Shown here: piece by piece, positions 39,876 to 44,788 of the stretch | Layout: each line of letters starts with the position of its first letter | Position numbering within the stretch: position 1 is the first letter of the stretch | Assembly (NCBI RefSeq): GCF_000455365.1 | Contig: NZ_HG315686.1 | Span: 181,126 to 245,125, forward strand | Direction of reading: 5' to 3' | Source of the DNA: Halopiger djelfimassiliensis | GTDB lineage: Archaea; Halobacteriota; Halobacteria; Halobacteriales; Natrialbaceae | Length of the DNA: 64,000 bases | Notes under the pieces: generated by a model | The model's input: the letters and a program-made list of their open reading frames with translations, nothing else | Databases searched by the model: none | What the model was told of the DNA's origin: nothing | Position numbers and translations under genes: made by a program

Positions 39876-41123
39876 CTACTCGTACAGCGAGTTCTCGTCA
39901 CACAGCCGCCGGACTTCGTCCCGGACCTCGGCGATGACCGATTCGTCTTCGGGGGCGTCGACGACGCGGGCGATCAGATCGCCGACCGTCCGGCAGTCGT
40001 CCTCGTCGAAGCCGCGGGTGGTCAGTGCCGGCGTGCCGGCGCGGATCCCGCTCGGATCGAACGGGGAGCGGGTCTCCCCGGGCACCGTGTTCGCGTTGAG
40101 GACGATGCCGGCTTCCTCGAGCGCGTCTTCGGCGTCGCCGCCCGACGTATCGGGGTGGCTCTCGCGGAGGTCGGCGAGCACGAGGTGGTTGTCGGTCCCG
40201 CCCGACACCAGCGAGAAGCCGTGATCGGAAAGCGATTCGCCGAGCGCTTCGGCGTTTGCGACGGTCTGTGCGGCGTACTCCTCGAACTCCGGCTCGAGAG
40301 CTTCCTTGAAGCCGACGGCCTTGCCGGCGACGTTGTGCATGAGCGGGCCGCCCTGTCCGCCGGGGAAGACCGCCGAATCGATGTCGTCGGCGAACTCCTC
40401 GCTCGTCATCACGATCCCGCCCCGGCCCGAGCGGATGGTCTTGTGGGTCGAGCCGGTGACGAAGTCGGCGACGCCGACCGGCGAGGGGTGAACGCCGGCC
40501 GCCACGAGCCCGGTAATGTGTGCGATGTCCGCGAGATGAAGCGCGTCGACGTCGTCGGCGACGGTCTGGATGCGCTCCCACTCGATCTCGCGCGGGTACG
40601 CGGAGTACCCCGAGACGATGATGTCCGGCTCGAACTCAGCGGCGTGTTCGGCGAGGCCGTCGTAGTCGATGTACCCCGTTTCCGGATCGACCTCGTACTG
40701 CTCGACCTCGTAAAGCTGGCCCGTGAAGTTCGCCGGGTGGCCGTGGCTGAGGTGGCCGCCGTGATTGAGGTCCAGCGAGAGGATCTTGTCGCCGGGCTCT
40801 AACATCGCGAAGTAGACGGCCTGGTTGGCCTGGGTGCCCGCGTGGGGCTGGACGTTGACGTGCTCGGCACCGAACAGTTCTTTCGCGCGGTCGATCGCGA
40901 GTTCTTCGACCTCGTCGGCGTACTCACAGCCGCCGTAGTAGCGCGATCCGGGGTAGCCCTCGGCGTACTTGTTCGTCAGGGCGCTCCCCTGTGCGTCGAT
41001 AACCGCGCGGCTGGCGTGGTTCTCGCTCGCGATCATCTGCAGCGTCGACCGCTGGCGATCGACCTCGCTCTCGAGCGCATCGGCGACTTTCGGATCGACC
41101 TCCCGAACGTGGTCGTGGTCCAT
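39876..41123 (-). CDS. glyA: Serine hydroxymethyltransferase
   Basis: PLP enzyme converting serine and tetrahydrofolate to glycine and methylene-tetrahydrofolate. 415 residues. Landmarks are LQMIASENHASRAV, NKYAEGYPGSRYYGGC, VNVQPHAGTQAN, and the PLP lysine in GSTHKTIRSGRGG. The ATG at 41123 follows ACACTTATAC (41156-41147) by about 28 bases, so transcription is probably leaderless; the longer in-frame extension is rejected. It feeds the same folate pool as folD and thyA. Confidence 0.96.
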   Translation of the reverse strand: MDHDHVREVDPKVADALESEVDRQRSTLQMIASENHASRAVIDAQGSALTNKYAEGYPGSRYYGGCEYADEVEELAIDRAKELFGAEHVNVQPHAGTQANQAVYFAMLEPGDKILSLDLNHGGHLSHGHPANFTGQLYEVEQYEVDPETGYIDYDGLAEHAAEFEPDIIVSGYSAYPREIEWERIQTVADDVDALHLADIAHITGLVAAGVHPSPVGVADFVTGSTHKTIRSGRGGIVMTSEEFADDIDSAVFPGGQGGPLMHNVAGKAVGFKEALEPEFEEYAAQTVANAEALGESLSDHGFSLVSGGTDNHLVLADLRESHPDTSGGDAEDALEEAGIVLNANTVPGETRSPFDPSGIRAGTPALTTRGFDEDDCRTVGDLIARVVDAPEDESVIAEVRDEVRRLCDENSLYE

Positions 41124-41386
41124 GTCCGATGTGGTGTCCGACTGCTGTATAAGTGTACCCCTCCTCGGCAAGTCGAGCCTCGATCGGCCGTCGTGACGAT
41201 CGGCGAAACGGCTCCGCTCGGCTCCCGTCGCCGACTCGAGTACCCGAGTCGTCCGCACATTCCGCGGGATCGAACCGGCGGACGCGGCCGATCGTGAGAC
41301 GCGGCTGACTTGGAACGTTAGCGTTTGACACGGTTGAGTTACCACCCGATACAACTAACTTTTCTGAGTGACATTCAGTAGACCGA

Positions 41387-43561
41387 ATGATTGAGTGGGC
41401 GGTGAGAGAGAATACCCTCCGCGTGACGGACGCAGATAACGCCGAGTTGGCAGTCCGTGGGGACGATCTCGTCGTCGACGGAACCGACGCCGACATCTCG
41501 CGTCCGGTCGACGAAACGCTCGTCGTGACTGCGGACGAACTCCGATTCCCGCACGCGGTCGTTTACGCCTTCCCGCTCGAGTCGACGGAGCCGTACGAAC
41601 TCGATCCAAGCGGTGAGCCACTCTCGCTCCCGCCCGACGAGTACGTCGTCGACGTCGACACCGAAATCAAGACGTACCTCCGGTTTTCCGGGCGTGCAAC
41701 GATCGAGAAAACCGACGATTTCGAATCGATCGTCGTCTCGTTCCCCGAACGAACGCGCGTCGTCGTCGGCTTCCGGAGTCACCACGAGCTTCCCGCGGGA
41801 ACGATTACGGTGCCCGACTCACCCGACGCCGTTGCCACCGCACTGACACACCTCTCCTCGTCGCACAAGACGACGAGTCCGGACCGAACCTACCCGACGC
41901 TTCGCGGCCATCCTCCGTTGCTCGAGCCCGGGGACGCTCTCGAAATCCCCGACAGCATCCGAAACGACAGTCCGGACTCCGGCATCGAACTACAGGTCCC
42001 ATCCGACTACGAGACGCTGTACGTCGTCGCCCCGCTGGCCTACTATCTGCAAGCGACTGTCCGGACCGTCCCGGCGGGACAGTTCGGTCCCAGCCGACCG
42101 CGTCTGCGGCTTACCGGTATGGCGATCGAGGAACGACTCGCCGCGATGCCCGATCTCGAACGCGACGTCGAACGGCTCCTCCGGAAAGCGTTCTTCCTGG
42201 ACTGTCTCGTTCGTAACGCCGGCCCGTACGGCACCGACCTCGCGGAACTGAGCCTGCTCGAGGCGCTCGGTCTCGACAGCGACGCCCTCTACGAGGCGTC
42301 CCCGCAGGAACGACTCGCCGCGTATCTCGAGGTCCCCTACGCGGCTATCGAACACCGACTCCCCGACTGGCATCTCTCGACGTACGTCGCCCCGGAGTAC
42401 GATCGCCTCGAAACGCTGCCGTTCCTGCTCGATCGGATGAGTCTGATCTACCGGCCCCGAACGTCGGAACTCGAGGGCCGAGAACTGGTCGAGCGCTCGC
42501 TCGAGGACTTCTATCGCGGCGGGCGCGACCGCGCTACCGGGTCTCACCTGTCGGCTCGCGGCGACGGCGACTGTCCCTCCGAGAACCTCGACAGGGCAAG
42601 CGCCGGACAGGTCGCGTCGGTCGATATCGTCAAACCGGAGCTCCGACACGGTCGCGTCCACGGCTGGCTTGCCGACGGCGTTCCGATCGACGTCTTCAAC
42701 TCCGCGACCGAGGCGTACTACAACCGCCTCGAGTACCTCGAGCGGACCAGTGATTCGACGTCGATCTGTGTCGTGTTGAACGACCCGGAGATGGCGGGCG
42801 AACACGACGACGTCGCTGAAATCTACCGCCGACGATCGGAGGAGCTACCGATCGAGGTAACCGTCGAGGAGTCACTCGGCACGGCCGAACTCGCGCGGGT
42901 CTTCGAGGACGAACACGACTTCGTCCACTACATCGGACACTGTGAAACCGACGGCTTCCGGTGTCCGGACGGTTATCTGTCGGCCTCGAGTCTCGATCGG
43001 TGCAACGTACAGACGTTTTTCCTGAACGCCTGTGGTTCGTTTTACGAGGGAACGACGCTCGTCGAGAAAGGCAGCGTCGCTGGCGCAGTAACGTTCACCA
43101 AGGTATTGAACGATCACGCCATCAAGGTCGGATCGACGTTTGCAAAGCTTCTCGTCCACGGGTTCAGCATCGAACGCGCGATGAGGCTCGCGCGCAGTCG
43201 AATCATGATGGGGAAAGATTACACGGTCGTCGGCGACGGGACCCACTCGCTGACACAGGGTGAGCATCGACAGCCAACGACGATCACGATCGAGCACCTC
43301 GACAACGGGGCCGAACACCGGAGACAGTCAGCCACCGAGAAATACCTCGTGACCTTCGATTGCTATTCGACTCGCGTCACTGGCTCCTATTATTTCCCGC
43401 ACACGGAGACCAACGAGTACGCTTACCTCTGTGGATCCGAATCCAGCTTTACGCTCTCTAAACCGGAAGTCGCGACGCTACTCAAAGAAACTGAGGCATC
43501 GGTGATCTACAACGGAGACATCTACTGGTCGGGAGAACTCTGGCCGCAGTTCGACCGCTGA
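41387..43561 (+). CDS. CHAT-domain (caspase-like) protein
   Basis: A 724-residue acidic protein with no membrane segment or signal. The first 390 residues have no recognised domain. Residues about 400-620 fit a CHAT peptidase: a beta-strand and His518 in FVHYIGHCETDG, then LSASSLDRCNVQTFFLNACGS with Cys549, then AGAVTFTKVLNDHAIKVGSTFAKLLVHGFSIERAMRLA, the helix region after the catalytic cysteine. About 100 further residues rich in tyrosine and threonine follow. CHAT proteases act in cell death, signalling and Craspase-type systems. No TPR, gasdermin, CRISPR or partner gene is adjacent. Function is inferred only from the fold and dyad. Confidence 0.72.
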   Translation: MIEWAVRENTLRVTDADNAELAVRGDDLVVDGTDADISRPVDETLVVTADELRFPHAVVYAFPLESTEPYELDPSGEPLSLPPDEYVVDVDTEIKTYLRFSGRATIEKTDDFESIVVSFPERTRVVVGFRSHHELPAGTITVPDSPDAVATALTHLSSSHKTTSPDRTYPTLRGHPPLLEPGDALEIPDSIRNDSPDSGIELQVPSDYETLYVVAPLAYYLQATVRTVPAGQFGPSRPRLRLTGMAIEERLAAMPDLERDVERLLRKAFFLDCLVRNAGPYGTDLAELSLLEALGLDSDALYEASPQERLAAYLEVPYAAIEHRLPDWHLSTYVAPEYDRLETLPFLLDRMSLIYRPRTSELEGRELVERSLEDFYRGGRDRATGSHLSARGDGDCPSENLDRASAGQVASVDIVKPELRHGRVHGWLADGVPIDVFNSATEAYYNRLEYLERTSDSTSICVVLNDPEMAGEHDDVAEIYRRRSEELPIEVTVEESLGTAELARVFEDEHDFVHYIGHCETDGFRCPDGYLSASSLDRCNVQTFFLNACGSFYEGTTLVEKGSVAGAVTFTKVLNDHAIKVGSTFAKLLVHGFSIERAMRLARSRIMMGKDYTVVGDGTHSLTQGEHRQPTTITIEHLDNGAEHRRQSATEKYLVTFDCYSTRVTGSYYFPHTETNEYAYLCGSESSFTLSKPEVATLLKETEASVIYNGDIYWSGELWPQFDR

Positions 43562-43969
43562 GGTTACGGCCCGCCGTACGTACTGATTCGTTTCGCGCGC
43601 ATCACCCGTCCGCCCACCGGTTCACGCCGATCCGTCCGCAGTCCGTACTGTTCGAGGAGGGCATGCACGGTCCACCACAGTCGATCGCGTGTCGAATCCA
43701 TACGATACTGTAATAACATGTCACTGGTATATATTTATTGTCATTATTTCTACCATTGTCGTGGAGAGACGAAGGGGAAGCTGAATTACCACCCGGCCGA
43801 GGGGCCGTGACCATCGAATCGAGAAGCCGTTCGGTCGAAGCCGCACATATGTCGACGGGATGATCCGAACTGGAACAAAAATTACCGGTTCGTCAGTCAG
43901 ACGAGAAGTTCTGCTGTGCAAACGGCCACCAAAATTAAGTAATTCGGTTTCGTTTACTTCTGTATAGGC
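43562..43969. other. AT-rich spacer before tbsP
   Basis: About 400 bases with TATA-rich tracts near 43715-43755 and AAAATTAAGTAA (43931-43942), the latter about 30 bases before tbsP and its probable promoter. The short frames on both strands are not protein-like. Confidence 0.5.
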
Positions 43970-44788
43970 ATGACCTCGAATTTACTTAATCACCAAATTG
44001 ACGATATCCTCGGGTCGGTGCTCGAGGATGCAAGCGGAGACGTCTACATGGTCAACCCCTCGTGGGATGCCATCGAAGAGTTCGTTTCGGTCGCCACCGA
44101 GTTCGACGGATCGCTTCCGACGGTCCACATGCTTGCCGACGAACGGACGCTGAAAGACGTCATGGACGACTTCATCGTCGCCTCCAACGCGGCCGACCTC
44201 ATCGCCGAGGACGCGCTCGCGCTGCGAACGCTCGAGGAGGCACCCGAAAACTCGCTGTTGATCACGAGCGACCGCGTCGTCGCCGTCGTCCACGCCGGGG
44301 ACCGCGTCGGCGGGCTCGTCACCGACGACGAGAGCTTCGTCGAGGACACCTACGACACGTACGCGGCCCGCTGGGAGGACGCCACGCAGTACAACCTCCG
44401 GACGCCGCCGATCACGGCCGTTCGCGAGACCCTCTCCGAGGAGATCAGCCCCGACGCCGAGGACGACTTCACGTCGATTCTCAACTCGCTCGAGACCGCC
44501 CGCGGCGACGGCGACGGCCTCGACGAGGTGACCATCTCGCTGCTGGTCGCGGCGAAAAACGAAGCGCTGCTGTACGACATCAGCAAGTGGGGCGAGGACG
44601 TCGGCATCGCCTCCAAGGCGACTTTCTCGCGTACCAAGACCAAGCTCGAGGACATGGGGCTTATCGACACCGAGAAGGTTCCGATCGACGTCGGACGGCC
44701 GCGGCTGCGCCTGAAGATCGGCGACGATCGCCTGCGTGAAGCCGACAACGGCCAGCTCGCGACGGTCGCACAGTCGATTCTCAACTGA
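43970..44788 (+). CDS. tbsP: Transcriptional regulator TbsP
   Basis: A 272-residue haloarchaeal regulator that I recognise as TbsP (DUF5821), described in Haloferax volcanii as acting with TrmB on genes of central carbon metabolism. It starts MTSNLLNHQIDDILGSVL, has a mixed alpha/beta central domain (about 20-135), and a C-terminal winged helix-turn-helix: GIASKATFSRTKTKLEDMGLIDTEKVPIDVGRPRLRL (about 215-252). The ATG at 43970 is preceded by AT-rich promoter sequence. A very large stem-loop begins two bases after the stop codon. Confidence 0.85.
   Translation: MTSNLLNHQIDDILGSVLEDASGDVYMVNPSWDAIEEFVSVATEFDGSLPTVHMLADERTLKDVMDDFIVASNAADLIAEDALALRTLEEAPENSLLITSDRVVAVVHAGDRVGGLVTDDESFVEDTYDTYAARWEDATQYNLRTPPITAVRETLSEEISPDAEDDFTSILNSLETARGDGDGLDEVTISLLVAAKNEALLYDISKWGEDVGIASKATFSRTKTKLEDMGLIDTEKVPIDVGRPRLRLKIGDDRLREADNGQLATVAQSILN

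Follow-up and report, generated by a model that had tools for sequence, protein, structure and literature searches.

Most of what is known about prokaryotic CHAT proteases comes from defence and cell death and from patchily distributed loci. The locus analyzed here raises the question of what such a caspase-like protease would do next to the housekeeping genes glyA and tbsP, and whether it acts alone. An earlier note, made from the window (the whole 64,000-nt stretch of DNA that was analyzed), had described an orphan CHAT protein with no substrate gene beside it. Coordinates of the features discussed below are collected in Table 1.

Fold and catalytic dyad of the CHAT protein

The 724-aa open reading frame and its two motifs are placed as the earlier note described. 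In the translation, His518 lies in DFVHYIGHCETDGFR and Cys549 in VQTFFLNACGSFYEGT, and in an alignment of 36 family sequences (alignment A1) the invariant residues sit in GHxxxxG and FFLNACGS. Conservation of the two residues among close homologues had been proposed as a check on the assignment. Both are kept in all sequences of clade A, the clade that contains the window protein, and loss in close homologues was not seen. Where catalytic residues are lost elsewhere in the family (n = 126), the loss is joint, His and Cys going together.

Sequence searches say little about the protein by itself. As a single query it gave 0 matches in Pfam, NCBIfam, PADLOC, and the PDB sequences, and a profile search of the PDB sequences with the CHAT family gave one chance-level match only (0.51). 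The Pfam CHAT model (PF12770) has 0 matches to the window protein and recognizes 9 of the 36 aligned relatives at E ≤ 0.1 (best 1.1e-4); one of the 36 is matched by Peptidase_C25 (Pfam). The AlphaFold2 model (pLDDT 85.9, pTM 0.83) is more informative. Core strands 510−516 and 541−547 end two residues before His518 and Cys549, respectively, a strand-end placement that, in the model, is the clan-CD pattern. When the model was compared with the PDB by Foldseek, the best matches were SAVED-CHAT (8tl0, 2.4e-7), separases, gingipain R, and caspase-4. Because the dyad is invariant, some relatives match Pfam CHAT, and the modeled strand pattern and the Foldseek list agree, we regard the CHAT assignment as sound, with the C-terminal part modeled as a clan-CD (caspase/separase) fold; the caspase-like fold suggested earlier is thereby supported. 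Proteolytic activity of the window CHAT is predicted from the sequence and the model.

The best structural match, SAVED-CHAT, shares the clan-CD catalytic fold and the His-Cys dyad with the window protein. The window CHAT differs in that it has no SAVED domain, no CRISPR neighbor was seen, and the Pfam CHAT model misses it; it also has an N-terminal half that is unmatched in the PDB and a core haloarchaeal distribution.

The statements that the N-terminal half has no recognized domain and that the protein lacks TPRs both hold: the half has no Pfam family and, when searched alone, no PDB fold match at E ≤ 1e-3, and no TPR family in Pfam matches the window CHAT protein. Residues 1−385 modeled alone give a confident fold (AlphaFold2, 97 sequences, pLDDT 93.9). 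As far as the tools show, the modeled N-terminal fold would be new, while the protease itself appears to belong to a known kind. Long Foldseek alignments had hinted at a pseudo-caspase lobe of the gingipain/separase type in residues 139−378; the N-terminal-only search gave this no support, and we rejected it. One clade of the CHAT family (L179−L184) retains the N-terminal half and has lost the catalytic dyad, so this half must have an independent function.

Table 1. Features of the CHAT locus in the window, and the repeat protein of genus g57
Feature	Coordinates	Strand	Description and basis
glyA (serine hydroxymethyltransferase)	39876..41354	−	usual divergent upstream neighbor; mechanical ORF; Pfam SHMT 1.2e-151, synteny
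CHAT protease gene, clade A	41387..43561	+	724 aa; ORF, class-wide homologues, AlphaFold2 and clan-CD Foldseek matches
N-terminal half	41387..42520	+	residues 1−378, modeled as 1−130 beta-rich, then 139−378 alpha/beta; AlphaFold2, PDB-unmatched
CHAT (caspase-like) catalytic domain	42617..43252	+	∼residues 411−622, predicted; model strand/helix alternation, fold matches, relatives' Pfam CHAT matches
Catalytic His518 codon	42938..42940	+	invariant in 36-sequence alignment A1; 116/126 family members keep His
Catalytic Cys549 codon	43031..43033	+	invariant in alignment A1; 116/126 family members keep Cys
Overlooked microprotein gene	43564..43701	−	45 aa, MDSTRDRLWWTVHALLEQYGLRTDRREPVGGRVMRAKRISTYGGP; tail-to-tail with CHAT, head-to-head with tbsP
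AT-rich, TATA-like box	43728..43739	−	AATAAATATATA; 27−38 nt before microprotein ATG
tbsP, transcriptional regulator	43970..44788	+	recurring downstream neighbor; Pfam TbsP_N + HTH_TbsP_C
Tandem-repeat (ADGN...ISGP) protein	L141:8938-9501	−	also L222, L227, L228, L231, L233

Distribution of the family

The protein is not the orphan it had been taken for. The CHAT family was found in 365 of the 391 sampled genomes of the class, with paralogues and, as described below, two recurring neighbors. To the extent that the tools can show, its core-gene status across the whole class is new. The 26 genomes without CHAT, of which 20 are listed by name and six were identified by elimination from the lists, are scattered across several families and genera. 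In the family tree, clade A stands apart from clade B and from the dead set L179−L184. Distant homologues occur in four genomes from one other family of the phylum (L250−L253). The dyad region is kept in three of these and changed in L250, and no GP microprotein of the kind described below was found beside them.

The source genome holds three family members. The second paralogue (L124) has His and Cys intact; the third (L125:6289-10085, + strand, contig C3 of source genome G000), ∼645 kb downstream of the window gene, is catalytically dead, with Asp and Pro replacing His and Cys. The gene for this pseudo-CHAT overlaps the GAF/PAS histidine kinase gene lying upstream of it, and the two form a possible kinase−pseudoprotease pair.

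This distribution bears on the proposal that the protein stands alone as a protease of defence or cell death and uses its N-terminal half to sense infection. Bacterial CHAT relatives do act in defence and cell death, the best fold match is a CRISPR-linked SAVED-CHAT, and the N-terminal half is a conserved, PDB-unmatched fold that could serve as a sensor. However, the window gene is a core gene in fixed housekeeping synteny, it has no PADLOC match, no relatives were found in viral contigs, and its recurring neighbors mean that it is not free-standing. No defence gene was recognized beside the CHAT loci examined, and a type III-E CRISPR neighborhood is absent at the window CHAT, which has glyA and tbsP as neighbors across the class. 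We therefore consider a defence role, which the earlier note had raised, to be highly improbable.

A microprotein gene between CHAT and tbsP

The usual gene order is glyA (on the opposite strand), CHAT, tbsP, and the true start of glyA is probably near 41123. The tbsP gene is more than a bystander: it lies directly downstream of CHAT on the same strand in 70 of the 76 clade-A loci. Of the six exceptions, three (L060, L062, L064) sit at the end of a contig, and the remaining three are L052, L054, and L075. In genus g64, CHAT−tbsP pairs are placed away from glyA at L074, L076, and L077, so that the relocated copies retain tbsP. Genomes of this genus (G124, G173, G345) carry 16−23 TbsP-like genes each, some of them CHAT-paired; elsewhere there is usually one. 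In H. volcanii, TbsP is reported to regulate gapII together with TrmB, and also to influence motility and biofilm formation (cited in PMC13286277).

The gap between CHAT and tbsP contains a second recurring partner, so the search for one across gene neighborhoods, which the earlier note had suggested, yields both tbsP and a small gene that had been overlooked. Its stop codon directly adjoins that of CHAT, on the opposite strand, and the encoded microprotein ends in AKRISTYGGP; an alternative upstream ATG at 43719 would give a 51-aa product. A GP-ended ORF is present at this gap in 51 of the 76 clade-A loci. The 25 loci without one, several of which have gaps too short to hold it, keep an intact CHAT dyad and are the main exception to the pairing. 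The AT-rich box ahead of the gene is similar in most relatives, and it occurs at identical spacing before 55 clade-B microgenes.

Selection on the tail can be read from the codons. Across 30 distinct clade-A 3′ ends, positions 1 and 2 of the Tyr, Gly, and Pro codons are fixed (entropy 0), while position 3 varies (0.35, 1.89, and 1.45 bits for Tyr, Gly, and Pro, respectively), as do the stop codons. This pattern indicates that the microprotein tail is under protein-level selection. The DNA coding TYGGP-stop occurs once in the source genome.

One reading of these loci is that TbsP is the real partner, with CHAT controlling TbsP by cleavage and the microgene merely sharing its promoter region. 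The 70 of 76 loci with tbsP downstream and the relocated g64 copies speak for it. Against it, glyA and tbsP are often immediate neighbors in genomes that lack clade A, which argues that tbsP is independent of CHAT; clade B has no tbsP neighbor; and at L054 and L075 the microgene adjoins CHAT even though the adjacent tbsP is missing. We consider this reading very unlikely.

The DUF7503 family and the role of the pair

The clade-B counterparts of the microgene are members of Pfam DUF7503 (PF24335; E 1e-17 to 1e-22). In these proteins, a short N-terminus is followed by HP[RK], then by a hydrophobic run, and finally by a short tail of 7−12 residues that differs between genera; they resemble a signal peptide ahead of the tail, and 55 of 58 end in GP. 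CHAT and a GP-ended ORF stand tail-to-tail at 64 of the 69 clade-B loci, the repeat form described below being counted. The window microprotein shares with the DUF7503 genes this place beside CHAT, in tail-to-tail arrangement, and the GP end. It differs in that it has no strongly hydrophobic segment and no Pfam match, the DUF7503 model included, and an intermediate form (L126) matches that model only at 0.0064. We link the window microprotein to DUF7503 because of its location, its GP end, and the intermediate forms.

The DUF7503 family is closely tied to CHAT. It is present in 334 of the 365 genomes with CHAT versus 0 of the 26 without (391 genomes), a co-occurrence with a chance of ∼5e-25 were genomes independent, which related genomes are not. 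In 51 genomes in which DUF7503 and CHAT positions were compared by eye, all 36 above-cutoff DUF7503 matches adjoin a CHAT gene. Of these, 35 lie within ∼0.4 kb past the CHAT 3′ end on the other strand; the G049 copy is 1.4 kb away. Genome G182 has one CHAT and no DUF7503. The microgene or its repeat form accompanies 63 of 67 intact-dyad clade-B members versus 1 of 10 dead members (Fisher P 4e-8, with kinship ignored). We found no publications on DUF7503 in the literature searched, and the near-exclusive pairing of CHAT with this unstudied microprotein family appears, from sequence comparison and as far as the tools show, to be new. The view that no substrate gene lies beside CHAT is not supported, given a microgene at the CHAT stop codon and relatives of it that are tied to the CHAT family. 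Two other candidates were set aside: HVO_2248, a Haloferax hypermotility gene considered as a relative, has different published neighbors and no CHAT, and DdfA was ruled out as a microprotein by its HalOD1 domain.

Genus g57 indicates which part of the microprotein matters. In six of eight genomes, the DUF7503 place is taken by a protein of 4−13 ADGN...ISGP copies with no hydrophobic segment; two sister species have an ordinary DUF7503 ending in GNSGAISGP or SNGAATSGP. At L141, all 13 units have the same peptide sequence, yet each is encoded by a different DNA sequence, so it is the peptide and not the DNA that is held constant. Across the microprotein forms, the GP end and the adjoining CHAT are constant, and there is no other constant cleavage motif. 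These comparisons point to the GP-ended tail as the functional unit of the microprotein. The multi-copy tail proteins also appear to be new, as far as the tools show; their repeats fit substrate, inhibitor, and peptide-signal models alike.

Taken together, the clan-CD fold, the invariant dyad, the exclusivity of DUF7503 for CHAT, the selection on the tail, and the rarity of the microgene beside dead-dyad members lead us to propose that CHAT and the microprotein very probably form a functional partnership. We propose that the clade-A CHAT acts together with a dedicated microprotein, encoded convergently, in which the Gly-Pro tail at the C-terminus would be the functional element. CHAT would bind and cleave the microprotein, most likely its private substrate, as in Csx29−Csx30 and CHAT−gasdermin pairs. 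The cut would free or eliminate the short tail and thereby toggle a regulatory state of housekeeping type. In clade A, TbsP, encoded next door, would probably control the module or read its output. We infer physical binding, cleavage, and the direction of control from the sequence patterns.

That the two are protease and substrate is, taken by itself, a claim to which we give nearly an even chance. The g57 repeats and the retention of the microgene at L054 and L075 without tbsP count for it. Counting against it are the 25 clade-A loci that lack a GP microgene despite an intact dyad, the missing Pfam match of the window microprotein, the lack of a constant cleavage motif beyond GP, and the hydrophobic segment of DUF7503, which would leave the tail on the extracellular side, out of reach of a cytoplasmic protease.

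CHAT−gasdermin pairs are a precedent for a CHAT protease with a dedicated substrate. A second precedent is the related protease Csx29, which cleaves the neighbor-encoded Csx30, a protein that binds RpoE (PMC9729208). The Craspase pair Csx29−Csx30 resembles the window locus in combining a CHAT protease with a partner encoded nearby, Csx30 being tied to the transcription factor RpoE (PMC9729208). The window CHAT differs in that it has neither TPRs nor Cas7-11, its partner is a 40−90 aa microprotein, and cleavage is a proposal drawn from the locus.

The microprotein may instead be an inhibitor, an antitoxin- or securin-like pseudosubstrate whose GP tail would block the CHAT active site until the microprotein is removed. 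Obligate pairing, with no lone DUF7503 genes, agrees with this. So does the tail, which is the part that is conserved and which g57 carries in multiple copies; such repeats would give a stronger, multivalent inhibitor. Separase, a related protease, is held by its small partner securin (PMC9729208), and separases are among the fold matches (5fby, 5fc2), so that a small dedicated partner is a possible parallel. The microprotein, however, has no sequence relation to securin, the locus has no cohesin context, and inhibition is here a proposal. An intact CHAT with no microgene (25 of 76 clade-A loci; G182) would be unexpected for a toxic protease left unrestrained. We judge an inhibitor to be somewhat unlikely.

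A further possibility is that the microprotein is a peptide-signal precursor, from which CHAT, or a signal peptidase together with CHAT, would release short peptides with a GP end. These would act inside cells or from one cell to another, and in clade A TbsP would sense them. DUF7503 resembles a signal peptide followed by a 7−12 residue tail that varies by genus, and the multi-copy tail proteins of g57 resemble pheromone precursors. In Rgg−SHP systems, a tiny peptide gene with a functional C-terminal tail lies head-to-head with a regulator gene. The clade-A microgene has the same layout with respect to tbsP, and a C-terminal tail that appears functional. TbsP is not an Rgg protein, though, the constant partner is a caspase-like protease, and signaling is again a proposal. 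With the hydrophobic segment missing from the window and repeat forms, the microproteins share no export route; in clade B, no regulator is a constant neighbor; and the only Haloferax density signal described is proteinase K-resistant (PMC12240190). We regard a peptide signal as unlikely. To the same degree we doubt its widest form, a class-wide haloarchaeal system in which a caspase-like protease would mature GP-ended peptides from microproteins, mostly single-copy and multi-copy in one genus, with a TbsP readout in one clade. We also weighed whether the Haloferax disk-forming signal might be a GP peptide and rejected this, as the signal is reported to be a proteinase K-resistant small molecule (PMC12240190); no link to it is claimed.

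A protease with a dedicated partner that it would cleave is, in our analysis, the most economical model. Our best reading is that CHAT and the microprotein form a housekeeping protease−microprotein module in which the GP-tail protein would serve as substrate or ligand and tbsP would contribute transcriptional control. The locus matters because it places a caspase-like protease, with a microprotein family, in the core genome and housekeeping synteny of a whole archaeal class. If the proteolytic switch is true, caspase-type regulation would be part of everyday archaeal physiology; if peptide maturation is true, the pair would offer a route into archaeal peptide signaling. Haloferax volcanii, a genetic model, carries a DUF7503 gene, and the partner, substrate, and phenotype are therefore directly testable.

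Besides DUF7503, clade B has no constant partner gene; the candidates DUF7504, HalX response regulators, and histidine kinases are shared only within sub-lineages. Some clade-B lineages have a DUF7504 gene or a Pfam-unmatched protein of 133−141 aa located 250−400 nt downstream of CHAT on the same strand (L163, L164, L167, L168; L146, L147, L149, L150). A DUF7504 gene also lies inside the window, at ∼53489−54007 on the + strand.
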